20,638 nt of DNA. Source: a virus. Made by a program: the position numbers and the translations under genes. A model generated the notes under the pieces. That model searched no databases. It saw nothing but the letters and a program-made list of their open reading frames with translations, and was not told the DNA's origin. Each line of letters opens with the position of its first letter. Position 1 is the stretch's first letter. Shown in pieces: positions 1,613-20,438 of this stretch. The DNA lies in IMG/VR virus record IMGVR_UViG_3300010883_000651, positions 1 to 20,638 of that record; one strand, written 5' to 3'.

Positions 1613-4030
1613 CTACATGTTAGATAATATACTACTTGTTGGATCTTCTAAATCTTGGGAAACTGCTGGATTTTCAAAATCTATAGCTTCTCCGTTTGTT
1701 TGTTTTTGTTTTGCAATTGCACTTTGTTGAGTACCTTGTATTTTAGTTCGTTTATCTTTTCTTGCTTCTATTTCACCTTCTTTTTCTTTTATAGTATTTA
1801 TTTTTTGTTGAGCTAATTGACTATTATAGTTAAATTCTAACTCCATTAATTCTCTTTTAATTTGAGACTCCACTTGCATTCTTTCTATTTCAAAACCAGA
1901 TTTACCTTTTTCTATCTTTAGTTGAGTATCAGCTAGTGCTTGTTGTTTTTGAACTTCATTCATTGCAGCCGCTTCAGCTTGTTGGGCATTTGCTTGAGCT
2001 TGGGCTTGTATATTTGCCTGTGAAGCTTCTTGTGCAGCTTTAGCAGCTTGTTTTTGTTTTAGCTTAATCATTTGATTAGCTAATTTAAGATTTTTTATTT
2101 GTCTAATATCAATAGCATCTGCTAAGCTAATAGTTTGCTGCTGTAAAGACATTTGTATATTTGCTTCTAATTGTTGTTTTTCTTCTTCATCCGGAACCAT
2201 CTCCATGAAAATACCAAAATCATATAAATGTAAATTCCAAAAATCTTCTAAAGTACCTACATTATAAGTATTTATACTGTTTTTTAAAGCTTCATTAGTT
2301 AAATCATATTCCATTGAATCCGCTAATCTTAATACAATATTTTCACAAGTTCTTAGTGTTAAATATAAAGATGCAGTTAAAATGTGTTTAGTAGCTACAT
2401 TAGAATTTGCTGCCGCAAGTTTTTGTAATCCTACTAGTGAATCAGAGTTTGGTAAACTACCATCTCTTGCTTCATTCAATCCTGTAACATCTCTTATCAT
2501 TTGTAAATAATATTGATAAGTCTGTATTAAAGATTGTATTTTCTGATTTCCACTAGATGTGGTTAATTCTTGAATAGGTATTTTTCCAGGGTTTTGATCT
2601 CCATCTTGAGTTAATGATCTACCAACTATACTACCTGTTTGGAAGTACATATTTAAAGCCTCTCTAGGATTGTATTTTGTACCATTACCTAAATCTACCT
2701 CTGCTAATCCATCTACATCTAGATAGACGCCATCAGGGACAATCCTAGACAGCACTTGCTGGATTTTTAAATGAGTTAGTTGTATCATGTCAGCAAACCC
2801 AATCATTCTACCAACTAAAGATTCAATTCTTCCATGATACATTTCTGGTGCACATAAGTTATAATTCATTTTAACTTTCACTAAGTTAGACTTTGGTCTA
2901 GTCATATTACGAGACATTTCCCATCTTAATAATTCGTCATGTCCTAATATCTTCGCTCCACTATACAATACTTCTATAGATCTAGAAACTCTTTCAAAGT
3001 TATCATTCTCTGGTGGATTAAAAGTATCGGGTTTTTCTAAAGCTTTTTCTAATCCGGTAGCGGTTTTCTTTATTTTCCAAACTTGATCACTATAAGTTTT
3101 ATATTCAAAATATAAAATATAAATACTATTACCATCTCTTCTCCCATACCAATTATATAAGTAATTACTGTTATTGGGATATCGTTGAATTCTTTCTAAA
3201 TCTTCATTAGATAAATGAGGAAACTCTTTTTTCATTTCAGATAAAGTAATTGCTTTAACTTCTCCTACATACCATAAATCTTCAAAATTAGGATCTTCTG
3301 TATAAGACCAAACCATACGAGCTGGATCACAATATTTAGTAACAACTCCCTCTGCTTCGTTCCAATTAGTCTTCGTAGCTCCAATACCTATTTCTACTAA
3401 ATCTTTTAATGTTCTTCGTTTAGTTAATTGATATTTGTTTCGTTCAAGAGTATTATTAATACCTTCTTCTGCAGCTATTTCACAAGATTGTTTATAACTC
3501 AATTGCATGTGTAAATCTAACTCTTCTTGATTTTCCGGTAATTCTTCAGGATTACTACTATTAAATAAATCTAAATTTAAGTTTTGCTTGACATTTTCTA
3601 AGAATTCTTTAGCTTGAATATCTCTTAAAATATCCGTAGCATATTTAGTTCTTTTTTTTAGTGAATTTGGATCTTGAGCAAAAGCTTTAATATCATAAAT
3701 CTTTTCGTCCATACCATTTACTACTATATCTACAAATTTCGGTATAATAGGTACAGGTTTCCAATCTAAGTTAAGATAGGATAAATCTCCATTTATAGCT
3801 AATTCATCTTTATATTTTTGCACGGGTTGTTCAGCTCTAGCATATAGACGGCGTAATCTAAAATTATTAAAATTAGTATTAAAACGATTTTCTACCCCAG
3901 TTCTTGTACCACTAAACCAATCTCCTTCTATAGCCATAGCTACTTGTTTTCCATATTCCCATGTTTCTTTTACATCGTCAGGTACAACCTGATCTGGAAA
4001 AGCACTATTAGTATTTGTAACAACTTGCAT
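1613..4030 (-). CDS. Portal protein
   Basis: This 805-residue protein is encoded directly after the large terminase (its ATG abuts the terminase TAA). Portals form the dodecameric ring through which DNA enters and leaves the head. The N-terminal half has portal-like features: an early Arg/Asn-rich helix (NFRLRRLYARAEQPVQKYKD, about residues 55-74) and a following segment with PIIPKFVDIVVNGM, then long helices. The middle contains a conserved-looking stretch around MIGFADMIQLTHLKIQQVLS, resembling the channel/stem helices. From about residue 615 to the end the protein is a Gln/Ala/Lys-rich coiled coil, then a short acidic tail. At this length it is longer than HK97 or phi29 portals and closer to the 700-850-residue portals I recall from crAss-like and marine Bacteroidota phages. 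The assignment rests on position, length and architecture. It stops with TAG. Confidence 0.85.
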   Translation of the reverse strand: MQVVTNTNSAFPDQVVPDDVKETWEYGKQVAMAIEGDWFSGTRTGVENRFNTNFNNFRLRRLYARAEQPVQKYKDELAINGDLSYLNLDWKPVPIIPKFVDIVVNGMDEKIYDIKAFAQDPNSLKKRTKYATDILRDIQAKEFLENVKQNLNLDLFNSSNPEELPENQEELDLHMQLSYKQSCEIAAEEGINNTLERNKYQLTKRRTLKDLVEIGIGATKTNWNEAEGVVTKYCDPARMVWSYTEDPNFEDLWYVGEVKAITLSEMKKEFPHLSNEDLERIQRYPNNSNYLYNWYGRRDGNSIYILYFEYKTYSDQVWKIKKTATGLEKALEKPDTFNPPENDNFERVSRSIEVLYSGAKILGHDELLRWEMSRNMTRPKSNLVKVKMNYNLCAPEMYHGRIESLVGRMIGFADMIQLTHLKIQQVLSRIVPDGVYLDVDGLAEVDLGNGTKYNPREALNMYFQTGSIVGRSLTQDGDQNPGKIPIQELTTSSGNQKIQSLIQTYQYYLQMIRDVTGLNEARDGSLPNSDSLVGLQKLAAANSNVATKHILTASLYLTLRTCENIVLRLADSMEYDLTNEALKNSINTYNVGTLEDFWNLHLYDFGIFMEMVPDEEEKQQLEANIQMSLQQQTISLADAIDIRQIKNLKLANQMIKLKQKQAAKAAQEASQANIQAQAQANAQQAEAAAMNEVQKQQALADTQLKIEKGKSGFEIERMQVESQIKRELMELEFNYNSQLAQQKINTIKEKEGEIEARKDKRTKIQGTQQSAIAKQKQTNGEAIDFENPAVSQDLEDPTSSILSNM

Positions 4031-6256
4031 TTATTTTATTATTTGTGAGGTGTATCCTTCGTTATTATATTTTTGTATTCCCAAATCAATACTTTTAATC
4101 GTTCGTTTGTTAGTAGGTTTATATTTATTCACCATACATGCCATAATAGCTAATCCTGAACTTATTGAAGCATCGTGTTTAGTTCTATTATTTATATCAA
4201 ACTTTGCCCAATCTTCTAGTGTTCGTTGATGATACATGTCTCCATGTATCCCATCATCTATTCCTACATAAGCATCTATATAATATTCAATTGCAGCCGC
4301 ATGAGATTGTTTCATGTCTTCACTAGAATTAGGTACTCCACCTATTTCTTTTTCAGCAACTGATAATCTGTTCCAAACTTTGTCAGGTCTATTAATAGAA
4401 AACCCTCTATATCCTCTTCTAAGCATTGTATATAATAAACGTGGTTTATTATTTTCAACTAATATAGGCATTCCATAAAATTGAATAGCCATTATAACAT
4501 CTTCAAAAAATATTTCTGCTGTAGGTGGTCTAGACACATATTCAAGGAAAAAATGATTAGGAGGACAATCTTCCATAGTAAATTTAGTTAATCCATGTAA
4601 AGATCCATTGGATCCTCTACCATCTACCGTTCCTGATATATCATAACTATCACAACCAAAAGCCCCTAAATGTTTATTTCCAGGATACTTTCTACCATCT
4701 TTTATTACAATATTATTTTGTAAGTGTACTGGTGGAACCCATGATACGTAAAATCTTCCATTATCATTAGGAACAAATATAACCTTACTATCTCTATCAC
4801 CTCTTTCCCATTGAAAATTACCTTGAGTAACCTTAAGTTTGTTGTTTAAATCTTCATTATGATCTATTTGTTCATATATTTTAACCAAATTGAATAAACT
4901 TTGTTTAGTTTCATCTCTAAAAGCATGTTTTTCCGTTCTTGGGAATTGTCTATATAATTCATTTAAACCATCTTGATCATCTTTGAAACCTTCAACTTCG
5001 TTGTTCCAATGTTCAATTACTCCTATATTTATGAAGTTTCCATCTATCCCTTTAGTAGGTTTTTTTGGAGTATCAAATATAGGATATCCATATATATCTA
5101 TAAATCCTTCATAGTTCCATTCCATAGGGATAAATAAAGAATATAATCCTTCTTTTGTTTGCCCGTTTCTATTACGCTTAGTAACGTCCGCAGCATAATA
5201 AATATCTTTAAAGTTTTGACCACCTTTATCAAGCGCATTAGAAGTTGAACCCATCATACATTTACCAACAATTCTACTACCTAACCGTAAACATGTTTTA
5301 GTAACCTTCCAGTTATTTTTTATATTATCTGGTCTATCCCATTTTCCACTTTCATCATGACCTAATATCTGTAATTTTTCTCCATCATAACTATTATCTC
5401 CTGTATTTTTCCAATCTATAGTAGTATCTAATCCATCTAACTCCCTAAGTTCTTCATTAGCCTCAATTTTTCTACGTGTAAGTTTTGATGCTGGAACTCT
5501 ATAGGCCAATTCGGTTTTAGGACGATCCATACCATCTTGGATGGGTTTGAAAAAGAATGGATAGTTAAGTGAGATTGGTACAACTTTATCTGTGAACATT
5601 TTCTTAGCATCTGCCCCTGATTTTGATAAAATTCCATATCTACTATCTGAGGATATTGTTGCTTGATTAACGAGTTCTGCAGAACACATGAAGGAAAAAC
5701 CTGATCGTCTGTTTTTAAGATAACACATGCCATAGGATCTATTATCCGCTTTACATGCTTCCCAAAACATAAAGAACAATCTATTTGCTTCTCTGTAATC
5801 TGGCGCTCCAACATCAATTTTTGACCATTGCAAATACATATAATGAGTACCAGTGATATAAGTAGAAACACCTTTGTTATAAAACCAAAATCCTTTTTCT
5901 CTTCTTTCAAATTCTTCATCAATATAATCCCACCATTTTTCTCTAAATTCTGCTGGATATTTCTCCCAATCGAATCTATTCTTTATTTTACTTAATTCTT
6001 TTGGATAATCAAATTTCTCCCAATATTGCTCTAATTTATTTTCACTGCGTTTGTATGATATTGTTTCTAACGGCAGGGCAATTCTAAGATTTTGGATTTC
6101 TATAATTTTTCCAATTTTACCAGTTTTGCTTATAACTATAAAATCATATTCTATATTATACCCGTACTCCCATCTTTTATATCTATTTTCTTTATTAAGA
6201 ATTTTAGTATTAACAAGATCAGGAATTTCTTTCCAAAGAGACTGTTCGTACTTCAT
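4031..6256 (-). CDS. terL: Terminase large subunit (ATPase and nuclease)
   Basis: This 741-residue protein is the DNA-packaging motor, which cuts concatemeric DNA and pumps it through the portal. The ATPase domain shows a deviant Walker A, KNRRSGFSF at residues 181-189 (the Arg-x-Gly-x-Ser form common in terminases). Walker B is LQILGHDE at 295-302, with D301 and catalytic E302, and a coupling motif GST lies at 336-338. The RNase H-like nuclease domain shows three acidic positions in the expected order: D536 in GAFGCDSYD, E601 in ILVEN and D695 in HDASISSGLA. The N-terminal ~170 residues are an extra Trp/Tyr-rich region. The start overlaps the stop of the upstream small gene in ATGA fashion, so translation is probably coupled. 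All signature residues are present and no frameshift is seen. Confidence 0.93.
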   Translation of the reverse strand: MKYEQSLWKEIPDLVNTKILNKENRYKRWEYGYNIEYDFIVISKTGKIGKIIEIQNLRIALPLETISYKRSENKLEQYWEKFDYPKELSKIKNRFDWEKYPAEFREKWWDYIDEEFERREKGFWFYNKGVSTYITGTHYMYLQWSKIDVGAPDYREANRLFFMFWEACKADNRSYGMCYLKNRRSGFSFMCSAELVNQATISSDSRYGILSKSGADAKKMFTDKVVPISLNYPFFFKPIQDGMDRPKTELAYRVPASKLTRRKIEANEELRELDGLDTTIDWKNTGDNSYDGEKLQILGHDESGKWDRPDNIKNNWKVTKTCLRLGSRIVGKCMMGSTSNALDKGGQNFKDIYYAADVTKRNRNGQTKEGLYSLFIPMEWNYEGFIDIYGYPIFDTPKKPTKGIDGNFINIGVIEHWNNEVEGFKDDQDGLNELYRQFPRTEKHAFRDETKQSLFNLVKIYEQIDHNEDLNNKLKVTQGNFQWERGDRDSKVIFVPNDNGRFYVSWVPPVHLQNNIVIKDGRKYPGNKHLGAFGCDSYDISGTVDGRGSNGSLHGLTKFTMEDCPPNHFFLEYVSRPPTAEIFFEDVIMAIQFYGMPILVENNKPRLLYTMLRRGYRGFSINRPDKVWNRLSVAEKEIGGVPNSSEDMKQSHAAAIEYYIDAYVGIDDGIHGDMYHQRTLEDWAKFDINNRTKHDASISSGLAIMACMVNKYKPTNKRTIKSIDLGIQKYNNEGYTSQIIK

Positions 6257-6531
6257 TTACTTCTTTTTTCAGCAAAACCTTTAAATATTTTTACTTCTTC
6301 AAGCGAGACACCATGAGCACTCTTAAGGAGTGTTTCTTCTTCTTCCATCCTATTAAGAATTTCAAAAGCATCAAATATAGCAAGTTTTTTTGTTGCTGCA
6401 GCGTTTTTAAGTCTATCTGCGGAAACATCATCTGAAGTATCCACGATCGGTTCTTTAGCCACTTTGATAAGTTCTTCAACCGCAATGTGCCCAGCTTGGA
6501 TTATACTCTTTTTCGTTTCCTGTGTATTCAT
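6253..6531 (-). CDS. Small helical protein, candidate terminase small subunit
   Basis: This 92-residue protein is encoded immediately upstream of terL, with an ATGA overlap. I start it at the ATG at 6529-6531. The frame stays open to a TTG at 6543, but that gives an even longer overlap with the gene before it. The protein is almost entirely helical, with a central segment SADRLKNAAATKKLAIFDAF and an acidic turn (MEEEET). Small terminase subunits recognise phage DNA, are usually 100-200 residues long and are encoded just before TerL, which is the only basis for the candidate call. No classical helix-turn-helix is obvious. From memory, the SADRLKNAAATKKLA segment is conserved next to terL in flavobacterial phages. 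The gene overlaps the end of the 201-residue gene by 56 bases, which is long for this window. It could instead be an unrelated accessory protein. Confidence 0.6.
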   Translation of the reverse strand: MNTQETKKSIIQAGHIAVEELIKVAKEPIVDTSDDVSADRLKNAAATKKLAIFDAFEILNRMEEEETLLKSAHGVSLEEVKIFKGFAEKRSK

Positions 6532-7081
6532 GTTGTAAAGCAATATTATTAGATTTCATACAATATAACCTTTCTCCATCAATAATAAATTCAAATTCAG
6601 AATTAGGAGTAAAAGTTATTAAGGCTTCTTTATCAAGTCCTTGTTTTATTAAAGTGGGGTTTGTGTATTTTAATACACCAGTAAGAGGTTCTTCTTTATC
6701 TATATCAAAAGAAGATTTATTATAAATAGGTTTTACAAAACAATATTCTAAATTCGAATATAACTCATTATTATGTTTGTATAAATATATTTGTTCGAAT
6801 CTACAAAAATACAAGTTATCTTTAAAAAAAGTACTTCCGTTCTTTTCTTTACCATCCATACCATAATATCTTCTAAAGATATTGTGATGTACATATACTT
6901 CATCACCGACCTCTATGGGAGTATTATAAGCAAGAGGTGTTTTTACTATTATAGCTTTTTTGCTTATAAATTTATGATCTTCAATATTTGTATTAACAAT
7001 TAATACTTTATCATCAATGACCTTTTCATTTTCGTAACGATCTGTAAAAGGAGTTATTATAAAATCATATAAACTTCTCAT
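6476..7081 (-). CDS. Conserved beta-rich phage protein, possibly GroES-like fold
   Basis: This 201-residue protein is of unknown function, conserved (from memory) near terL in Bacteroidota phages. It is rich in beta-prone Tyr, Ile and Val. The segment AIIVKTPLAYNTPIEVGDEV (about residues 43-62) followed by YVHHNIFRR looks like the barrel of co-chaperonins: an alternating hydrophobic strand, then a Gly-Asp turn, then a strand, as in GroES 'VGDIVIF' and T4 gp31. The similarity is by eye only, and the mobile loop cannot be recognised. The protein has several Cys (C93, C114, C174, C200 by rough position). It overlaps its upstream neighbour by ATGA and its downstream neighbour by 56 bases, so it is co-translated in the cluster leading to terL. 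A structural virion protein is an alternative. Confidence 0.6.
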   Translation of the reverse strand: MRSLYDFIITPFTDRYENEKVIDDKVLIVNTNIEDHKFISKKAIIVKTPLAYNTPIEVGDEVYVHHNIFRRYYGMDGKEKNGSTFFKDNLYFCRFEQIYLYKHNNELYSNLEYCFVKPIYNKSSFDIDKEEPLTGVLKYTNPTLIKQGLDKEALITFTPNSEFEFIIDGERLYCMKSNNIALQHEYTGNEKEYNPSWAHCG

Positions 7082-7857: not shown

Positions 7858-8787
7858 CTAAGGAGTTCCTCCGTCTGTTATAACCCACGTTCTAAGTACC
7901 ATTGCGTCGCGTGCTGTGGTTGGAGCACCTGCCGAATAATGAGCTGTTCCTGCATTAAAAGTAACGCCACTTGTTCCGTAAGCATCCCATGCTGGTAGTA
8001 GTAAGTCATAATTTGTGATTGAGAATCCGCTTAATAACATCATATCAGTTGCTGCAGTTACGCTTGATATATCAAATCCACTAATATCTGAATCAAAAAG
8101 TGTACAACTCTCGAACATAGAACTAATATCAGTTACATTTGATAAATCAATATTTGGTGTTAAATTATAAATACTACAGTTCTTGAGAAAACTAACGACC
8201 GTATTTAAAGCAGTTGTGTTTGTAAAAGTTATAGGGCTATTGAAAACGTAATTTCTAAGTAAGAAGTTACTAGCTATGGTTAAATTAGTTGTATCAAAAT
8301 CAATAATACCATCAAATACCCAACAATCAGCAAAACCTGCACTCATAGTTGTTACCAAAGAAGTATCAGGTTGGTCAGTATAATTAGCAACCATATTTTC
8401 ACACCCACGAAAAGCCTGTTCCATCGACGCCCATTGGTTAGAACCCCATTGATCTATAGATATAATTTTTTTCCTATCTCCACCATTAGCAAATTTAATA
8501 CCAGAAAAAGATCCTTCTATTATTATTTCATAAACACCACTAACAGCATAGATGTGAGTTACATCTGTAACTGTGGTTACTGTTTGTGATAAAGTATCTC
8601 CCCAGTAAATTGTAAAGTTGTTCGCACTAGTTTGTAATGGTAATTTAAACTGAGACGGATTTATACCTGGCTTAGTAGTATCTATAGTCATTTTAAAATC
8701 CGATAGTCCGGCATCACCACCTCCACCTGAACTCCCAACTGCTCTTCGAAGATCAACTATTTTAGTACCCATGCTTATGATACTCAT
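7858..8787 (-). CDS. PKD/BspA-like (DUF285) surface-binding protein, probable tail fibre or adhesin
   Basis: This 309-residue protein has three visible parts. Residues 1-30 are a short head ending in a Gly-rich linker. Residues ~30-95 form a PKD/immunoglobulin-like strand set, with NFTIYWGD followed by THIYAVSGVYEIIIEG, the hallmark of PKD-type domains in bacterial surface repeat proteins. Residues ~100-250 form a BspA-type (DUF285) leucine-rich-repeat-like solenoid with repeated 'MFxxCxxFxxxI' units: MEQAFRGCENM, MSAGFADCWVF and MFESCTLFDSDISGF. The C-terminus (SGVTFNAGTAHYSAGAPTTA...WVITDGG) is the type of tail I recall from phage fibre proteins. Such proteins mediate attachment. The gene starts directly on the stop of the 209-residue virion gene (TAGATG). 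It is probably an exchangeable host-binding protein. Confidence 0.8.
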   Translation of the reverse strand: MSIISMGTKIVDLRRAVGSSGGGGDAGLSDFKMTIDTTKPGINPSQFKLPLQTSANNFTIYWGDTLSQTVTTVTDVTHIYAVSGVYEIIIEGSFSGIKFANGGDRKKIISIDQWGSNQWASMEQAFRGCENMVANYTDQPDTSLVTTMSAGFADCWVFDGIIDFDTTNLTIASNFLLRNYVFNSPITFTNTTALNTVVSFLKNCSIYNLTPNIDLSNVTDISSMFESCTLFDSDISGFDISSVTAATDMMLLSGFSITNYDLLLPAWDAYGTSGVTFNAGTAHYSAGAPTTARDAMVLRTWVITDGGTP

Positions 8788-9432: not shown

Positions 9433-9879
9433 TTATAAAACTATTTTTCCTATTTTCTTAAGGATTGTTAATACTAAGATTAAAAATAATCCTATATATA
9501 TAAATTCTCTATATTTTTCCCACCATGATAATTCTCTAAATACTGCTTTTTCTACAGGGACTAAAGTCTCTATATATACAGTATCTCCTAGACATTGTAC
9601 GTCATGATAGATAACTTCTCGTAAAGTGTCGTAATAATACTTTAATACAACTCTTTCATTATTTATAACCGTTGTAGTATCATATGATCTTATTATAGTA
9701 GTAGTATCATAATTGTAATTTTCCACTACTACAGTATCCCTCACTATAACAGTATCTTTCTGTGATAGTTCAGGATGTCTAGTTATTAATCTATTTAATC
9801 TCTCTTGAGGAGAGCAACTAATTAATAAACTAAATAATATTATTTGGGCAAAAACTTTGTAAATACTTTTTCTAACCAT
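9433..9879 (-). CDS. Probable unimolecular spanin (u-spanin)
   Basis: This 148-residue protein has the full layout of a u-spanin, the single-chain lysis protein that links the outer and inner membranes (the T1 gp11 type). It has an N-terminal lipoprotein signal with basic MVRKS, a hydrophobic stretch and a lipobox L19-I20-S21-C22. A beta-rich periplasmic part of about 100 residues follows, containing DTVIVRDTVVV and two YDTTT repeats, then a C-terminal membrane helix at about 126-146 (FIYIGLFLILVLTIL) and a basic end. The long start at 9879 is needed to keep the signal peptide. It overlaps the upstream two-helix membrane gene by 40 bases, out of frame. This layout and the position next to a holin candidate support outer-membrane disruption in a Gram-negative host. 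A generic phage lipoprotein with a membrane anchor is the alternative. Confidence 0.75.
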   Translation of the reverse strand: MVRKSIYKVFAQIILFSLLISCSPQERLNRLITRHPELSQKDTVIVRDTVVVENYNYDTTTIIRSYDTTTVINNERVVLKYYYDTLREVIYHDVQCLGDTVYIETLVPVEKAVFRELSWWEKYREFIYIGLFLILVLTILKKIGKIVL

Positions 9880-12547: not shown

Positions 12548-13795
12548 TTATTTTGTTCCTGTAAAACCAAATGCATTATTAGCAAAATTAGCTTGTTTTT
12601 TTGCTTTATTTCCAAAATCTCCTTCTTTTGATTCTTCCATTATCTCTGGAGTAATTTTTCCACCTGACTTAATAACGCCTTGAGAAGTTAAATTTTCTCT
12701 CATTCCTCCTTTATCGTAACTAACCTTTTTTCCACCAAGTTCAGTTGTTGCTTTTTTAGCAGGTCCATGCATTCCCATTCCAGCACTCCCCATAGTATTT
12801 GGTGTAGTATTTGTAGCAGCATCTGTACCTAAATTTTCTTGAGCTTGTGCTATTTGATCTTGAGTATTATCTTGACCAGGTGCCATTGGATTCATAGATT
12901 GATTTACTTCTCCAACTGATGAAGAAATATCACCCATCATTTGTGTAGGTGCTACTTGAGATTGTGGTTTAAGACCTGGATCAGTAATGCTAGCACCTTG
13001 TTCTAATATACCTGTATTTACTGCTCCGCCTGCTCGATTAGGTGGAATTATTGTAGGATCCGTCATATCTGGGTTAACCATTGGGAAAGCACTTCCCCTT
13101 GAATTTATTTGTTTCATTGAACTATTGTTTTGTTTTTTCATATTTACTACGGATGAGTTACCCGATAGTATTGGATACTGATCGCTAACATCTACTGTTC
13201 CTGCTTGAGGAACAAAATCTATTGGAGTTTGTTGACTCTCATCATAACTCGTTGTAAGACTGTTATCTTGGTATGGATTAGTTATATTGCCCATCTTTTC
13301 ATCTCCTGGAGCATTTATTTTTTCATTCATCAACGCCTTATGTCGTGTGTTTTTTTGTCTCTCTTTAATCTTAGCCAGTTTTTCTGGATTAGATTTAGCA
13401 ATTTTATCTTCAGTTAGTTTATTTTTTAAATCCCATTTTTTCTCTTGTCTTTCATTTCTAGCCTTAGTTTTTAACTCATGCTGTCTTGCTCTACCTCTTT
13501 GAGTAGGATTTAAATTTAAATCATTAGCTCTTTTGTGTAATCTTTTAGTTTTACTATCCATACTGCCTTGAGCATCTATGTTTTGTACAGCCGTAGTTAT
13601 ATCATCTGGTTGATTTAATATATCAGCATTTTTATTTACATTTGTAGCATCAATATTTTCATCTTCTCCTTCAGCAGTTACGTTATTTGGTACAACTAAC
13701 CCTTGTGTTAAGTCTGGAATTACATTTCTATTGTTAGTTGTTCCAGTTGGATTGCTATAATTTGTAAAAGGACTATTATGTTGTTTATATGACAT
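12548..13795 (-). CDS. Low-complexity Asn/Gln/Met-rich hypothetical protein (415 aa)
   Basis: This is a 415-residue protein of unknown function. The first 80 residues are Asn/Thr-rich. Residues ~83-160 form a very basic, probably helical stretch (KTKRLHKRA, TKARNERQEKKWDLKNK, IKERQKNTRHKA). From ~160 to 340 it is Asn/Gln/Ser/Pro/Met-rich and probably disordered, with the MNPMAP and NTMGSAGM kind of sequence. At 340-348 it carries MGMHGPAKK, one of the Met-x-Gly-Pro peptides shared with other proteins of this block. The C-terminus (NKAKKQANFANNAFGFTG) is again polar. It looks like a disordered, nucleic-acid- or capsid-associated structural component rather than an enzyme. Its start overlaps the end of the winged-helix gene by 11 bases. 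Confidence 0.65.
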   Translation of the reverse strand: MSYKQHNSPFTNYSNPTGTTNNRNVIPDLTQGLVVPNNVTAEGEDENIDATNVNKNADILNQPDDITTAVQNIDAQGSMDSKTKRLHKRANDLNLNPTQRGRARQHELKTKARNERQEKKWDLKNKLTEDKIAKSNPEKLAKIKERQKNTRHKALMNEKINAPGDEKMGNITNPYQDNSLTTSYDESQQTPIDFVPQAGTVDVSDQYPILSGNSSVVNMKKQNNSSMKQINSRGSAFPMVNPDMTDPTIIPPNRAGGAVNTGILEQGASITDPGLKPQSQVAPTQMMGDISSSVGEVNQSMNPMAPGQDNTQDQIAQAQENLGTDAATNTTPNTMGSAGMGMHGPAKKATTELGGKKVSYDKGGMRENLTSQGVIKSGGKITPEIMEESKEGDFGNKAKKQANFANNAFGFTGTK

Positions 13796-14231
13796 TATTT
13801 CGTGTTTTATCGTGATTAACCATGCGAGCTGCTAAAGTAGTAACTTTATGCATATAGTTAGTTTTTTTACTTATATTAGTTAAAGACATATCTTCTTCTC
13901 CTAACATGATTCGGTACATACGAGCGATGAGTTGTTTACACTTTAAGGAAACTTTATATATATTATATTTTTGAGTGGTCCTGTTTCGCTCACGCCAAAC
14001 CTTTATCCATCCTTCTTTTAATAATCTGTTCCAGCGTCTATTGTCCCAACTGTAAGAGTACGTACCTTTTTTAAAATCATCTTTTGTAAATAAATCAATT
14101 GCATCTAAGTAAATTAATAGTTCTAGGTCTGCTTCTTTAATATCACATGTCTTACAGACCCATTTCCTAATAATTCTATAATGTTTTAATAAATTTAATT
14201 CCCTTAAATCTGTTGATGTTATTTTCCTCAT
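13785..14231 (-). CDS. Winged-helix-like (MarR-like) protein
   Basis: This 148-residue basic protein has a pattern that fits a winged helix-turn-helix. Residues ~32-44 (KEADLELLIYLDA) form a first helix, FTKDDF a second, and WDNRRWNRLLKEGWI (62-76) the recognition-helix region. KVWRERNRTTQKYNIYKVS (77-95) forms the two-stranded wing and is followed by a long helix (CKQLIARMYRIML). C26 and C29 in WVCKTCD form an isolated pair. Such proteins bind DNA as regulators. Its place inside the late block suggests a late-gene regulator or a protein that handles packaged DNA. The fold is judged by eye. It overlaps the upstream gene by ATGA and the downstream gene by 11 bases. Confidence 0.6.
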   Translation of the reverse strand: MRKITSTDLRELNLLKHYRIIRKWVCKTCDIKEADLELLIYLDAIDLFTKDDFKKGTYSYSWDNRRWNRLLKEGWIKVWRERNRTTQKYNIYKVSLKCKQLIARMYRIMLGEEDMSLTNISKKTNYMHKVTTLAARMVNHDKTRNNVI

Positions 14232-14890
14232 TTACCTTTCCTAGCTCTCTTAGCTTTTTTCTTTGCAGCTTTCTTAGCTTTTCTATTACTTTTCTTTAGA
14301 GTTTTACTATCTTTCTTTAAACTTTTTGCTTCTTTTTTAGTTATATCTCCAGATTTACGTAGTTCTTTAATCTCTTGCTTATTGCTTCTATGTTCTTTTC
14401 TTCTTGCTTTACCTTTAGAATCTTTTTCATAATCATCTTCAAAACCAATCTCTCCACTTTCCGTTCTATATCTCTTTTCTTCTAATGCCGCTTCTTTAGC
14501 ATCTGCTTCTGCTTTTTCCGCTGCTGCTGTATCTTCTTGTTTTTGTTGGTTTCTTATTTTCCAAGCTTTTCTTGCGTCAAGTCCTCTTCCACGAGTAAGT
14601 CTTTCTTGTGTATCAACTACTTCTTTGTTTTCCGATGAAGGCTTATCATCAGGTCCTAGATTTTTAACAGTTGCATCAGCTGCCCCTGATTTCTGTAAAT
14701 CGTTTTTAGTTTCATCAATTGGTTCTTCTGTTGATGGCTCTGTAGGAGTTTCTCCTGCTACTGCTGGCATAGTTTCTTGCTTTGCTACGAACTCTGATTC
14801 ATATAATGGAGATTTCATAGTCATAGCCGATTTGAATTGATCTGCAAAACATCCGCCTTTATATTTTTTACCTTTTCTTAATCTACTCAT
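14228..14890 (-). CDS. Lys/Ala/Glu-rich basic protein with MKSP peptide (220 aa)
   Basis: This 220-residue protein directly follows groES with an ATGA overlap. The N-terminus is basic (MSRLRKGKKYKGGCF) and is followed by MTMKSPLYESEF at 23-34, matching the FKMKSP start of the 469-residue protein. Residues ~40-90 are acidic and Thr/Pro-rich (PTEPSTEEPIDETKNDLQ). From ~90 the chain is charged and helical. The last 50 residues are histone-like, with repeats of KK, KA and KR (KSLKKDSKTLKKSNRKAKKA, then AKKKAKRARKGK). The basic tail suggests binding to DNA or to the inner capsid surface. The acidic middle may neutralise it before assembly. No known domain was recognised. It resembles the 273-residue protein in composition rather than in alignable sequence. 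Confidence 0.65.
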   Translation of the reverse strand: MSRLRKGKKYKGGCFADQFKSAMTMKSPLYESEFVAKQETMPAVAGETPTEPSTEEPIDETKNDLQKSGAADATVKNLGPDDKPSSENKEVVDTQERLTRGRGLDARKAWKIRNQQKQEDTAAAEKAEADAKEAALEEKRYRTESGEIGFEDDYEKDSKGKARRKEHRSNKQEIKELRKSGDITKKEAKSLKKDSKTLKKSNRKAKKAAKKKAKRARKGK

Positions 14891-15144
14891 AGAATTATTA
14901 CTACATCTTGTTCTTTAATTACTTTATATTGAAGATCTTTTATATCTATACCAAATCCGGCATTTTTATCATAATATATTAAATCTCCCTTATTAAGGAC
15001 CGTAACATCACTTCCAGGTTCTACTACTTTGCCCTGGCGATACCTTATATCTTCTCTAGTTTCCTCGGTTAATAATAAACCTCCACTAGTTTTACCATCT
15101 GTTTTTATTGGTTCTATTACTATAAATTTTCCTACTGCTTTCAT
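14887..15144 (-). CDS. groES: Phage-encoded co-chaperonin GroES
   Basis: This 85-residue protein is the lid of the chaperonin and caps GroEL during ATP-driven folding. The GroES fold is clear: strand GKFIVIEPI, mobile loop DGKTSGGLLLTEETRED (residues 16-32) with the GG-hydrophobic-tripeptide that docks on GroEL (GGLLL here, GGIVL in E. coli), then RQGKVVEPGSD, the GDLIYYDKNAG turn and a C-terminal strand set (KVIKEQDVVIIL). Usual length is 95-100 residues; this one is slightly short, mainly in the region before the last strands. Its ATG overlaps the groEL TGA, so the order is groEL then groES, the reverse of the standard bacterial operon, and translation is probably coupled. Confidence 0.92.
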   Translation of the reverse strand: MKAVGKFIVIEPIKTDGKTSGGLLLTEETREDIRYRQGKVVEPGSDVTVLNKGDLIYYDKNAGFGIDIKDLQYKVIKEQDVVIIL

Positions 15145-16688
15145 GCTCTTATATTATTAATTACACAATCAGTGGATAAGATAGTAGTAGCTACGGAAGC
15201 TGCATTAAGTAAAGCACTTTTAGTAACCAACAAAGGATCTATTATTCCGGACTTTACCATATTTACTGTCTTTCCTGTAACCACGTCTAATCCTTTACCT
15301 TTTTCGTCTAATGTAGGAATTTTTTCAATTCCAGCATTTGTTAATATAACTTTAAACGGTTGCTTAATTGCATTGTAAAGAATTTCTTCTCCAATGTTGT
15401 TTGGATGAAGATATTGACTTGCATTTAATAATGCAATACCTCCACCTGGTAATATACCTTCTTTTATTGCAGCTTTTGTAGCACAAATAGCATCTTCTAC
15501 TCTATCTCTTTTTTCTTTCAATTCTACTTCTGAATTAGCCCCTACTTTTATAGTTGCCATCTTAGCTTGTAGTTTTGCTAATCTGCGTTCTAGTCTTATA
15601 ACTAGATTAGGATTAGTATTATTTTTTATTTCTGATTTAATATAAGATACTAAATCGGAAATAGTTTCATTATTAGAAGTATTTACTTTTAATATAGTGC
15701 TATAAGAATCGGAAACAGCTTTTTCACATCTTCCTAGGCATGAAGGATCAAGTAAATCCATATCATCTCCTATATCCTCATTTATTACAGTTGCTCCAGT
15801 AAGTAATGCTAAATCAGATAGAATATCTTTTCTATTTATTCCATAGTAAGGTGCATCTATTATATTTACCTTTAAATTTCCTTTTATTTTATTCATTGCT
15901 AAAGCATTTGATACTTGAGCATCTACTTCTGCAATTATTAAAAGAGATTCATTTCCTTTAATTATAAACTCTAAAATACTTTGAACACGTCTTAAGTTAG
16001 GTATATTAGATTCTACTAACAACACATAAGGATTTTCTAATTCACAAATTCCTTTAGTTTGATCTGTAATAAAGTGATGATTTTTTAAAGGTTGATCATA
16101 TTCTACTCCATCTGTTAAATGAACATAAGTATCCGGTTGATCATTAATTTCCATGGTGACTACACCAGTTTCTTCTACCATAGCAAAAGCTTCACCTATA
16201 ATCTTTCCTAGTTCTATATCGTTATTAGCTGATATAGTAGCTACTTGAGTTATTTTTTTACCATTAATTTTTTTAGAATTCTTTTCTAAGTACTTAACTA
16301 CTTTTTTAACTCCACCTAAAATACCTTCTTTTATTTCTCTTGTAGAGAAATTTTTTCCGATTTTATATGCTTCCTTTAATATAGCCTCAGCTAAAACCGT
16401 GGCTGTAGTTGTTCCATCTCCTGCTTCTCCTACCGTACGTTGAGCTGCTTGCTTAAGTAAAGTGGCTCCGATATTCTCTAGAGGATTTTGTAATACTATT
16501 GAATTAGCTACAGTTACTCCATCTTTAGTTATACTAGGATTTCCATTAGTGTCTTCTAGTATAACACATTTGCCGCTAGCTCCTAACGTAGAGCTAACAG
16601 CTTGTGTTAATTTCGCAACTCCTTTTAATATTTGCTCGCGCGCTTTGTCTCCAAAGACTACGTCTTTTACCAATTTTGGTTCTTCCAT
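15141..16688 (-). CDS. groEL: Phage-encoded chaperonin GroEL
   Basis: This 515-residue ATP-dependent chaperonin subunit shows no frameshift or internal stop. ATP-site elements are in place: STLGASGK (33-40), TKDGVTVA with D56, DGTTTAT (91-97), TISAN (151-155), VEDA with D399, GGG (415-417) and D484 in GIIDP. Apical substrate/GroES-binding helices are recognisable (NLRRVQSILEFI, 231-242). It is about 30 residues shorter than E. coli GroEL and ends INNIRA, lacking the Gly-Gly-Met tail that lines the cavity floor. The usual Tyr203-Phe204 pair appears as His-Phe. It is divergent from host-type GroEL, which argues for a long phage history rather than recent capture. A hairpin lies in its leader. 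A likely role is folding phage virion proteins. Confidence 0.95.
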   Translation of the reverse strand: MEEPKLVKDVVFGDKAREQILKGVAKLTQAVSSTLGASGKCVILEDTNGNPSITKDGVTVANSIVLQNPLENIGATLLKQAAQRTVGEAGDGTTTATVLAEAILKEAYKIGKNFSTREIKEGILGGVKKVVKYLEKNSKKINGKKITQVATISANNDIELGKIIGEAFAMVEETGVVTMEINDQPDTYVHLTDGVEYDQPLKNHHFITDQTKGICELENPYVLLVESNIPNLRRVQSILEFIIKGNESLLIIAEVDAQVSNALAMNKIKGNLKVNIIDAPYYGINRKDILSDLALLTGATVINEDIGDDMDLLDPSCLGRCEKAVSDSYSTILKVNTSNNETISDLVSYIKSEIKNNTNPNLVIRLERRLAKLQAKMATIKVGANSEVELKEKRDRVEDAICATKAAIKEGILPGGGIALLNASQYLHPNNIGEEILYNAIKQPFKVILTNAGIEKIPTLDEKGKGLDVVTGKTVNMVKSGIIDPLLVTKSALLNAASVATTILSTDCVINNIRA

Positions 16689-16722: not shown

Positions 16723-16742
16723 ATCCCCACCGTAGTGGGGAT
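16723..16742 (-). promoter_or_regulatory. Stable RNA hairpin with UACG tetraloop before groEL
   Basis: In the minus-strand transcript the sequence reads as an 8-bp perfect stem, AUCCCCAC pairing with GUGGGGAU, closed by C-G around a UACG loop. This is a UNCG-class tetraloop, known to be extra stable. It sits 18 bases after the stop of the Cys-rich gene and 34 bases before groEL. No U-run follows it on the minus strand (AUUGCUUAAAU does), so a standard intrinsic terminator is doubtful in that direction. A stability or processing element, or an attenuator, is more likely. On the plus strand the same stem is followed by eight T, so it could also stop antisense transcription. Confidence 0.7.
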
Positions 16743-16759: not shown

Positions 16760-19543
16760 TTATAGTAAGTTACATGCTACATCTTCACAGTTTTCTGCAG
16801 TTGATATAATTGTCCCGGTTGGTGCATCACAAGGAGGTAACTCCTCACTTAGTGTATAACAACATTGTATGCTTGATGATATTTCTTCACCTACAATTAC
16901 ACCATATGTTGCTGGATCCCATCCAATAACTCCCGATACATCTATGTAAAGAGTTGCTGGTGCTAATGCATTACAAGTAGCTCCTGCTGCTCCATCACAT
17001 ATATTGTATTGTCTTAGATCTTGTTCACAGCAATCACAAGGATTAAGTTCACCTACTCCAAAATATTCAGTTACGAATAAATCTTCAGGAATAATTTCCA
17101 GACCACCACTACCACCTTCTTGTATTTCATAACATACATCTAGAAAAACTCCATCGCCCCAAGCGCCACCGTTATTGAATTCCTCTAGATTTGTATCCGT
17201 ATCAATCCATTCTTCTGCTCCACATTCTCTATATTGGAAAAATACTATATCTGTACAAGTACAATCTATCCACGCTGGATTACCATATCCTATATCATCA
17301 TACGTAAATCCATGAGTAGATATTAGTGTTTCTGGTACACATGGAGGCACCTCATTCTTTTCATAACAACATTCTTCACCAAAAGGACTCAATGTCATGA
17401 ATTGAGGAGCACTACTAGGTTTCCAAGATTCTCCCATATAATCACCCCATAAACATACATCTACATATAGAGTAGGATAACTAACTCCCTCTATTTCACA
17501 TACTGGATCAACAGCACATGCTATATATTCTACTACATCATAATTTATACAACAATTACAATCTTCCCATGTAGCATTATAAGCACTATCACACGATGTT
17601 TCTACAATGAACGTATTCCACGCTACAGCAGGACCGAGAGAAATAGTTTCTTCTACTTCTATGCAACAATCTCCATTTATACAAGTACCAGGAGTATCTA
17701 TCTCACCTATATAGTGATTGCCTGGAACATTGAATGGTGCTGGGATAGGATCTAATTCATCTTCATATCTCCAAGATTCAACACCTTCTGAACATATCTT
17801 CCAACGTAAATCTACTTCAGGTGTTGGACAATATACTTCATCTCCACAAACTGCAATACCGGTTATTGTATTAATTGGTGGCAAACACACTTTGTTTGGA
17901 GTATTGTAACACCATGTATCTTCTCCACTTGCCCAATAAACATCAGGATCTGGAGTTTGACATTCACATCCAGTTTCATCCCATGGAACTTCTACAAAGA
18001 TAGTTGGTGGGAATATTCCTTCATCATATCCTGGACATGCTTGATATTCATACGTACATGGGAAAGTACAACACATGCAATCTGTTGGATAATTATCAGC
18101 AACTTCCTCGCATGGGAAAGATCCTCCAACAGGTTCACCAATATTGCCAACATATTCAAAACAGTGCTGCGTTTTTTCCTCTTCACCACAGCAATATCTG
18201 TCTATTTGACCTAATGGAGCACCTGGCTCTATATCACTAGTAACTAATGGTAGCACACCACTACAATCTTGCCACGTATAAGTAGCAGGAACACCTGGAC
18301 AAGCCTCTGGATCATCACAAGGATTTTCAGGTACGTCAGATAGAGTATAACCTTCAGTTATTGGTAAACATTGTAATTCTGGACCGCTATAACACCATGT
18401 AGTTCCTATACTATCATTAGTTACAATAATATCAGGTTGTGGATCATTACATATACAAGTAAATGCCCCATCAAATCCCATGTTAAACGTAATAGATGGA
18501 GGGAATCCGGCAGGTGAACCTGAACAAGCTGTATATGTATAATTACATTGGTTAATACAACAATCACAATTATCAAAAGTAGCAGTGTTAACACATGGGT
18601 CAAAGGTTCCACCAACTGGTTCACCAATATCTCCTTTGTATTCCCAGCATATAGCATATTGTTCTGGTCCTGGGCTTTCACAGCAATATGAAAAACTTTG
18701 TCCTATGAAATGTCCGGGATCTATATCTACTGTTACAAAAACACTAGGATCTTCACATTGCTGATAACTAAATGTTCCAGTGGGAGGAACACATTCAGGT
18801 GATTCACAACCAAACTCTGGTATTGCACCAAGTACAACAGCTATTGGAGGATCTCCTGATGCTATACTAACCTGATAACATAATTCACCTGCTGGAGTAG
18901 TTATTAAACTAACCGAACCTGGAAATGCAAGTGCTGCTATTCCTGGTGTCAATGTTTCTGTTGTATAATATACTGTACCTGAAAAACATGGTGTTAATGC
19001 ATATGATGTTTCTGGACAACATACTTCACATGTAGTATCTGAAGCGCTATATGTTGCTAGTTCTATATACCAACAGTCCTCGATAACTACTCCATTCAAT
19101 GTGAGATTATTTATATATCCCGGCGCTAGCGCACCTAATGTTTCATCGCAAGTATAAATCCACTCATAGGGTTTTTCACCTAGAAAACAATCTCCTTCTT
19201 CACAACTAACACGTCTCATAACATAAGTTGGAGGGCAACTACCTCCGCCACCACCGGCGCTTTTAAAATCTATACTCTTAGTAGCATTATTTCCAGTAAT
19301 AGTTACTGAAGCATCTGACGATGTAAAATTAATTACTGTTGCGCAATCAACTGCTGAAACTATATCTCCTACATCAGGGTTAATTTTAGCCATTGAAGTA
19401 GTACAAAAATCCCCGGTTATCAATGCTATAATAGCACCAATCCCAGTTATTTTAGTTTTTTTGTTATCCGCTTCGTCTGTAATTACAATTGAATCCTGTA
19501 GTGAGGGAACTGTTTTTACGGGATAGGTATATATTATAGCCAT
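16760..19543 (-). CDS. Large Cys-rich repeat protein, probable virion surface or receptor-binding protein
   Basis: This 927-residue protein has about 74 cysteines by my count, exceptional for a phage protein. Residues 1-95 are a Cys-poor module (starting MAIIYTYPVKTVPSLQDSIV) like virion-anchoring heads of phage fibres. A Gly linker (97-101) follows. Residues ~103-251 hold two first-type Cys modules, including YALTPC...LCYQV...FGCESPEC, resembling the known phage pattern Y-x-L-x-x-C...CW/CY-x-V...C-x-x-C. Residues ~255-572 are two copies of a ~160-residue unit. Residues ~573-927 hold more divergent copies. A CxC[C/T]...Y/F-x-x-C element recurs at 326, 489, 662, 761 and 836. It has no signal peptide. 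It is flanked by hairpins and stands upstream of groEL. A surface fibre-like role is inference. No enzyme motif is visible. Confidence 0.75.
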   Translation of the reverse strand: MAIIYTYPVKTVPSLQDSIVITDEADNKKTKITGIGAIIALITGDFCTTSMAKINPDVGDIVSAVDCATVINFTSSDASVTITGNNATKSIDFKSAGGGGGSCPPTYVMRRVSCEEGDCFLGEKPYEWIYTCDETLGALAPGYINNLTLNGVVIEDCWYIELATYSASDTTCEVCCPETSYALTPCFSGTVYYTTETLTPGIAALAFPGSVSLITTPAGELCYQVSIASGDPPIAVVLGAIPEFGCESPECVPPTGTFSYQQCEDPSVFVTVDIDPGHFIGQSFSYCCESPGPEQYAICWEYKGDIGEPVGGTFDPCVNTATFDNCDCCINQCNYTYTACSGSPAGFPPSITFNMGFDGAFTCICNDPQPDIIVTNDSIGTTWCYSGPELQCLPITEGYTLSDVPENPCDDPEACPGVPATYTWQDCSGVLPLVTSDIEPGAPLGQIDRYCCGEEEKTQHCFEYVGNIGEPVGGSFPCEEVADNYPTDCMCCTFPCTYEYQACPGYDEGIFPPTIFVEVPWDETGCECQTPDPDVYWASGEDTWCYNTPNKVCLPPINTITGIAVCGDEVYCPTPEVDLRWKICSEGVESWRYEDELDPIPAPFNVPGNHYIGEIDTPGTCINGDCCIEVEETISLGPAVAWNTFIVETSCDSAYNATWEDCNCCINYDVVEYIACAVDPVCEIEGVSYPTLYVDVCLWGDYMGESWKPSSAPQFMTLSPFGEECCYEKNEVPPCVPETLISTHGFTYDDIGYGNPAWIDCTCTDIVFFQYRECGAEEWIDTDTNLEEFNNGGAWGDGVFLDVCYEIQEGGSGGLEIIPEDLFVTEYFGVGELNPCDCCEQDLRQYNICDGAAGATCNALAPATLYIDVSGVIGWDPATYGVIVGEEISSSIQCCYTLSEELPPCDAPTGTIISTAENCEDVACNLL
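17828..18781 (-). repeat. Tandem duplication of a ~160-residue Cys-rich unit inside the 927-aa protein
   Basis: Unit one (residues ~255-416) and unit two (~417-572) share, in the same order: YxxCC near the start; GDIGEPVGGTF against GNIGEPVGGSF; CDCCINQCNYTYTAC against CMCCTFPCTYEYQAC; FPPSI against FPPTI; CxCxxPxPD; TTWCYSGPELQCLP against DTWCYNTPNKVCLP. The spacing between blocks is nearly constant, so this is an in-frame tandem duplication that has since diverged. Confidence 0.85.
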
Positions 19544-19616: not shown

Positions 19617-20438
19617 TTACTTTCTATTTCTTGCAAAAAGACCTCTAGCCAATCCAGATCCACCTTTACCATGCATAGATAATCCTTTTTTCTTTTGATC
19701 CGTACTATGGATATTACCTTCCAGATGTTCTATTTTCTTCCTATCAATAGCCATTTTATGATCTGCACTCATGCTTGGTCCACCGATGTTATGAGCATTG
19801 TCATATTTATTTGGTCCTCTTCCCATAGACATTCTTCCTAATCCTGGTGCACCTTCTGAACCTGCGCCTTGTAATCTATTGCTATCAGCCATACTTGGGC
19901 CTTCCATGCTAGTTCCTTTAAAAGCTCCTGCTGCTGCTGCTACTTTTCTTTTTACTTTCTGAGCACCTGCTTTAACTTTTTTGGCTGCACCTTTAGCTTT
20001 GTCTGCCGCACCTTTAACTTTGCCTTTTACTTTAGATACTTTACTATCCACTTTATTTTTAACTGCTCCTGCTGCTTTTTTACCTGCTGCAGTTACATCC
20101 GCTTTAGCTTTTTTAATCTTCTTACCTCTATTTTCTTTTCTTTCGTCTCGCTTGGTTGATTTATTTTCTTTTTTATCTGCTTTCTTATCTACCTTGCCTT
20201 TAACCTTAGCTAGCTTCTTAGCTTGTCTTCCTGCTTGCTTATCATCTTTAGCTTTTTGCTTACCTTCTATCTTTTCTCTCTTTGCTTTTTTTACTCCAGC
20301 TTGCCCTCTTTTTTTAGCGGCTCTTTTAGTTTTGCCTTTAGCTTCTAATCTATCTGCCTTAGCGCCTTTTCTTTTCTCTCTTCGTCTTAAGCGATCTGCA
20401 CGAGCCTCTAACGGAGATTCTTCTACTTGTGTTGCCAT
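19617..20438 (-). CDS. Histone-like Lys/Ala-rich protein with GPSM-rich tail (273 aa)
   Basis: This 273-residue, extremely basic protein comes first in the block. Residues ~12-170 are almost only Lys, Ala, Arg, Gly, Glu, Asp, Gln and Val, with H1/Hc1-like stretches such as KVKGKVKGAADKAKGAAKKV and KVKRKVAAAAGAFK. The C-terminal 100 residues change character to Gly, Ser, Met and Pro, with TSMEGPSMAD (176-185), IGGPSMSAD (218-226) and LSMHGKGG (253-260). Composition suggests nucleic-acid condensation, perhaps as a protein packaged with the genome. The tail may be the part that targets it to the virion. Low complexity makes family assignment unsafe. The start is an ATG with an A/T-rich leader (AAAATTTAAAACA), and the upstream 200 bases contain no gene. 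Confidence 0.7.
   Translation of the reverse strand: MATQVEESPLEARADRLRRREKRKGAKADRLEAKGKTKRAAKKRGQAGVKKAKREKIEGKQKAKDDKQAGRQAKKLAKVKGKVDKKADKKENKSTKRDERKENRGKKIKKAKADVTAAGKKAAGAVKNKVDSKVSKVKGKVKGAADKAKGAAKKVKAGAQKVKRKVAAAAGAFKGTSMEGPSMADSNRLQGAGSEGAPGLGRMSMGRGPNKYDNAHNIGGPSMSADHKMAIDRKKIEHLEGNIHSTDQKKKGLSMHGKGGSGLARGLFARNRK

Follow-up and report, generated by a model that had tools for sequence, protein, structure and literature searches.

Chaperonin genes in a phage late region

The window analyzed here, a 20,638-nucleotide (nt) fragment of a marine phage (IMG/VR record IMGVR_UViG_3300010883_000651), encodes a group I chaperonin together with two co-chaperonins of different architecture, all on the minus strand. 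The groEL gene (15141..16688; 515 amino acids, aa) and a single-domain groES gene (14887..15144; 85 aa) share a four-nucleotide ATGA stop/start overlap at 15141..15144, and a third gene (6476..7081; 201 aa) encodes a tandem co-chaperonin with two GroES folds. An earlier, sequence-only reading of the window had described the first two genes as intact and overlapping by ATGA, and both their coordinates and the overlap were verified in the open reading frame (ORF) listing and in the raw sequence. It overlooked the GroES-type gene at 6476-7081.

Pfam, PHROGs and NCBIfam agree on the identities of the overlapping pair. GroEL matches PF00118 (6e-60, 203.7 bits against a cut-off of 34.3) and the small GroES matches PF00166 (9e-10, 38.8 bits against a cut-off of 21.1). 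Because GroEL exceeds the cut-off of the NCBIfam subfamily PRK12849 (462 versus 352 bits) but falls below that of the stricter GroEL equivalog TIGR02348 (458.1 versus 582.1 bits), it belongs clearly to the group I chaperonins, as a divergent member. The small GroES has the mobile loop SGGLLL, whose docking tripeptide LLL had been recognized correctly. The alignment also reveals that the roof beta-hairpin, which is found in E. coli GroES and is no requirement for GroES/Cpn10 membership, has been deleted.

The gene order had been called the reverse of the bacterial one, and it is: groS-groL is the order in E. coli, and groES lies upstream of groEL in 63 of the 66 scored bacterial loci carrying both genes. 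In all 51 IMG/VR marine loci with both genes, groEL precedes groES, and most share the 4-nt ATGA overlap; these loci are relatives by design, since similarity was used to fetch them. Virion genes had also been placed all around the pair. The late region that holds the chaperonin genes does include genes for a terminase, a portal and an endolysin (domain and PHROGs calls), but the terminase and portal genes are about 9-13 kb downstream and the gene adjacent to groEL is a Cys-rich ORF of no assigned function, so that this description is borne out in part.

GroEL residues and selective constraint

The window GroEL is 38.6% identical to E. coli MG1655 GroEL by alignment and, as had been noted, is short (by 33 aa) and devoid of the GGM tail. 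The apical residues are altered as well: seven of the nine classical groove positions differ from E. coli (Y199L, S201N, Y203H, L234Q, L259S, V263A and V264M), with F204 and L237 retained. These nine positions, and the ATPase residues that follow, were chosen on the basis of GroEL mutagenesis. The ATPase and hinge residues K51, D52, D87, T89-T91 (GDGTTT), D398, G415 and D495 are all present, and they are invariant in 47 clade members, save for gaps in one truncated row. The altered groove is equally constant in the clade, with Q234, M264, F204 and L237 found in 47/47 members and position 203 always H or N, a pattern suggesting that the groove was re-specified long ago. Median dN/dS (the ratio of non-synonymous to synonymous substitution rates) is 0.10 for GroEL, 0.12 for GroES and 0.17 for the tandem GroES gene, values that point to purifying selection on all three genes and to a maintained machine. 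Residue conservation and dN/dS together exclude decay of the chaperonin genes into pseudogenes.

Origin of the phage GroEL

The sequence-only reading had called this GroEL divergent and proposed a phylogeny. In a tree of 121 sequences (IQ-TREE quick search, with support from the Shimodaira-Hasegawa-like approximate likelihood ratio test, SH-aLRT), the window GroEL falls in nested sets of 17 and 29 rows composed entirely of viruses, the larger with an SH-aLRT of 99 and a long stem, and nests inside no sampled host genus. This clade is joined more weakly to other long-branched phage GroELs. All 75 bacterial rows, a broad rather than exhaustive set drawn from the matches listed, lie outside it, and among the matches listed the best identity of the window GroEL is 71% to viruses and 43% to bacteria. 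The GroELs of DAC19, LR756501 and Va1 fall among the bacteria and look like separate captures. The tree thereby places the window GroEL in an old, purely viral lineage, related to Flavobacteriia phages and outside any sampled host genus.

These results bear on two other accounts of the gene. If the phage had recently captured a host groESL operon, general homology would be expected, and it is the one point in favor of this account; the tree rules it out at the sampling used, and the reversed gene order, the long-stemmed viral clade and the bacterial identities of 43% or less among the matches listed make it exceedingly improbable. Alternatively, the phage GroEL could be a general booster of the host's folding capacity during infection, without specialization. 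None of the catalytic features expected of an ordinary group I chaperonin is missing from it, and the host-like GroELs of DAC19, LR756501 and Va1 are apparently independent captures. We consider a general booster unlikely, however, as the groove is both altered and fixed and the GroEL belongs to an old, separate lineage instead of being a host-like copy.

A tandem co-chaperonin beside the terminase gene

The 201-aa product of the gene at 6476..7081 is called 'co-chaperonin GroES' by PHROGs, while a Pfam scan of the protein returned no domain match. A sequence search against solved structures yielded just one chance match, and recognition of the protein consequently needed fold comparison. The AlphaFold2 model, built from an alignment of 37 viral relatives, has a predicted local distance difference test score (pLDDT) of 84. 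Among solved structures the model is closest to Chlamydomonas Cpn20 (7ekq_R; Foldseek E 6e-4), a chain of two Cpn10 units, to which VIA-align superimposes 158 residues at 3.9 Å with a Z of 10.1. Taken separately, residues ~1-106 and ~106-186 both resemble GroES, Hsp10 or gp31, with Z about 7-8 (7.5-8.2 for GroES and Hsp10). The model thus depicts two GroES folds, arranged head to tail in a single chain. Profile comparison with GroES is strong for the C-terminal half (97% probability, E 1e-11) and weak for the N-terminal half (E 1e-3, with reversed decoys at 0.08-0.12).

The two domains differ in their loops. The N-domain loop has an invariant docking-like pattern, L-[IV]-x-N-T (T in 35/37 relatives), whereas the C-domain loop is without a hydrophobic tripeptide throughout the window clade; the corresponding loop of phage phi46:3 still carries the GroES-like stretch LIYIP. 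Because a docking loop is not found in both domains, we term the protein Cpn20-like in architecture and not a Cpn20. In the window, as in MW202828, Panino, elemo, phi38:1 and phi46:3, the tandem gene lies just upstream of that for the terminase large subunit (4031..6256 in the window, minus strand), the two being adjacent or separated by a single small ORF. The tandem GroES is the more unusual part of this phage's chaperonin set, a layout otherwise known from chloroplasts. Our literature search found no paper describing a tandem GroES in phages, which is weak evidence of novelty. Separately, a 105-kb virus record has two tandem-GroES matches, at 40185-40787 and 101614-102180, one of them broken by a stop.

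The position of the gene invites a reading in which the two co-chaperonins work apart: the small GroES would serve the phage GroEL, and the tandem protein would have become something other than a lid, for example a packaging or head-assembly factor. Proximity to the terminase gene in the window and the phages just named is consistent with such a role, as are the lost tripeptide of the C-domain loop in the clade and the weak sequence similarity of the N-domain to GroES. Weighing the other way are the invariant hydrophobic motif in the N-domain loop, the LIYIP retained by phi46:3 and the finding that the tandem gene never occurs without a GroES gene in the complete genomes examined. We regard this division of labor as a possibility that falls somewhat short of an even chance.

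Co-occurrence of the three genes

The sequence-only reading had implied that a phage GroEL-GroES pair is rare, and this did not hold up. By tblastn, 274 of 50,697 INPHARED phage records contain GroEL relatives, and several phages have pairs. The two genes overlap in the order EL then ES in the Flavobacterium elemo phages and in MW202828 (Manatee Spring), and Maribacter phage Panino has the same order; in immuto the order is ES then EL, and in Calle and phi38:1 it is ES, an ORF and EL. There is also precedent in the literature: a passage of PMC11590407 describes both homologues for Panino, and a passage of PMC7185714 states that some phages possess both.

The tandem gene is present in 22 of 23 records with GroES/GroEL loci, the lone exception being a 23-kb fragment; three distant tandem matches among the 22 contain stops, which could be sequencing errors or mark decayed copies. 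Conversely, GroEL is found 5.6-12.6 kb upstream of the tandem gene in 12 of 20 tandem-bearing records. The remaining eight end at most 8.6 kb upstream of it and therefore say nothing on the absence of GroEL, and in each of these records that reaches far enough the tandem gene is accompanied by GroEL. All three genes are present in the complete genomes of phi38:1, MW202828, Panino and elemo. The complete genome of phi46:3 (NC_021792) has a single GroES (3561-3815) and a tandem GroES (16805-17407) with no GroEL match, and the complete Gundel genome has none of the three chaperonin genes. The tandem profile had no match in the GroEL-bearing phages outside the group (immuto, DAC19, Va1 and LR756501). 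Every complete phage genome examined that has the tandem gene, phi46:3 included, has a one-domain GroES as well; the two lids travel together, whether or not the phage encodes GroEL.

A probable dedicated phage chaperonin

We propose that the three genes probably specify a self-contained group I chaperonin, dedicated to the phage, with one-domain and tandem lids that serves late phage proteins and morphogenesis. The set, all three members of which belong to the old viral lineage related to Flavobacteriia phages, would comprise GroEL rings and two lids: a one-domain GroES, roofless and translated from the overlapping frame, and the tandem GroES, whose gene is next to that of the terminase. GroEL would be expressed late, would bind late phage proteins in a cycle dependent on ATP and would have the phage co-chaperonins as its caps. 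Both the groove of the apical domain (Q234, M264 and H/N203) and the LLL loop of GroES would have drifted, in concert, away from host types. Given this drift, the machine probably uses its own lid and has a narrower client set, and its clients would most likely be head or tail proteins. A role in morphogenesis parallels that of gp31 and the T4 capsid protein, which gives a precedent for phage-dedicated folding.

Several observations weigh against this proposal. The inter-ring contacts of GroEL (R452, E461, V464 and A109) are freely variable among the 47 clade members, which makes the ring architecture uncertain; the ring-ring contact of the phage protein may differ from that of GroEL. No capsid gene was identified within the 20,638-nt fragment. 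Moreover, the same terminase family includes phi46:3, without GroEL, and Gundel, without all three genes; as these phages manage without it, there is no universal need for a phage GroEL.

The dedicated chaperonin has a finer version, which does not contradict it, in which the two co-chaperonins form a mixed lid of seven GroES units (for example, three tandem chains and one single chain, 3x2+1), similar to Cpn10/Cpn20. Such a cap would be asymmetric or wider and would serve particular clients of the phage. The tandem architecture suits such a lid, as do the constant company of a one-domain GroES in complete genomes, phi46:3 among them, and an N-domain loop that is invariant while the C-domain loop is without its tripeptide in the clade. 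Chloroplasts offer a precedent, as their co-chaperonins Cpn10 and Cpn20 assemble into functional hetero-oligomers that contain seven GroES domains (PMC5780408; PMC4242682). On the other hand, the single and tandem GroES genes are ~8 kb apart instead of adjacent, and Cpn20 and the phage tandem protein are alike in fold, without demonstrable common descent. We put forward the mixed lid tentatively, and hold a separate terminase-side role for the tandem protein to be equally likely. In its fullest form, which we offer with slightly more reserve, Bacteroidota phages would have evolved a chloroplast-like, seven-unit asymmetric lid from tandem and single GroES chains, acting on the phage GroEL (in phi46:3, on the host GroEL) and tuned to a phage structural protein.

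Phage GroEL-GroES pairs are already known, though little tested, and the tandem co-chaperonin is the new element added here. A single chaperonin served by two types of lid, one being a fused double, would offer a compact natural system for asking why lids should be asymmetric, and whether phages arrived at this solution independently of chloroplasts. The gene set varies naturally among culturable phages: elemo and phi38:1 have all three genes, phi46:3 the lids only and Gundel none, so that the role of each part can be studied by comparison.

Neighboring genes and candidate clients

The portal gene (1613..4030, minus strand) follows the terminase gene. By synteny with MW202828 and elemo, the capsid gene should sit just past the portal end of the window, and the capsid protein is a plausible client of the chaperonin. 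The sequence-only reading had offered the Cys-rich neighbor of GroEL as another client. This 927-aa protein (16760-19543, minus strand) contains 74 Cys (8%), with 10 CC pairs in repeated blocks. The loci of related phages instead carry a Cys-free ORF of ~96 aa about 30 nt upstream of groEL together with large Cys-poor ORFs, and scanning viral contigs with the patterns used found no relatives of the protein. As it is not conserved beside groEL in relatives, we dismiss it as a conserved client. Between the Cys-rich gene and groEL, a strong hairpin followed by a T-run lies on the plus strand at 16723-16742; the flanking genes are all on the minus strand.

On the other side of the pair, a gene at 13785..14231 (minus strand) encodes a 148-aa winged-helix protein with a MarR/MotA-like fold, assigned to phrog_17028 (no known function). 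Its model is MarR-like (pLDDT 83.5, Z up to 10.6) and matches the T4 MotA activation domain with a Z of 9.6; the protein is probably a transcription regulator, judging from this model. The gene adjoins or is near groES in the clade, and in distant relatives it has switched strand with respect to groES. It is also present in Cellulophaga phages that lack GroEL or have it at a distance, which weakens its candidacy as a strict chaperonin partner and identifies it as a core gene of the phage family.

Three further features were observed. A 309-aa protein with DUF285 repeats, a family first described in Mycoplasma, is encoded in the late region (7858-8787, minus strand). Downstream of the endolysin gene, a small lipoprotein-like ORF with a C-terminal hydrophobic stretch (9433-9879, minus strand) is a possible lysis or spanin-type protein. 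A 21-bp tandem repeat (19970-20022) lies within a Lys/Ala-rich ORF of 273 aa (19617-20438).

Comparison with known systems

The closest known layouts are those of elemo, MW202828 and Panino, which share with the window the EL-ES order, a terminase-adjacent tandem GroES and a related terminase and portal. Their GroELs, however, are just 34-39% identical to the window GroEL, in all three, groES and the winged-helix gene are on different strands and, in elemo, the strand that holds the late genes is not that of the chaperonin pair. Pseudomonas phage EL gp146 is a phage-encoded GroEL relative, according to a passage of PMC7185714. By comparison, the window GroEL is ~39% identical to E. coli GroEL and comes with lids; with groES adjacent and a tandem GroES besides, the window chaperonin is not of the co-chaperonin-independent EL type.

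T4 gp31, needed for the capsid protein gp23 (PMC3012670), is a one-domain GroES without a roof hairpin, as in the window phage, and has a longer loop (PMC6318259). It serves the host GroEL, whereas the window phage brings its own GroEL alongside its 85-aa GroES. Chloroplast Cpn20 with Cpn10 resembles the phage set in combining two head-to-tail GroES folds per chain with a one-domain co-chaperonin, but the phage tandem protein is only ~10-12% identical to Cpn20 and its C-domain docking loop is degenerate in the window clade; the likeness is one of fold.
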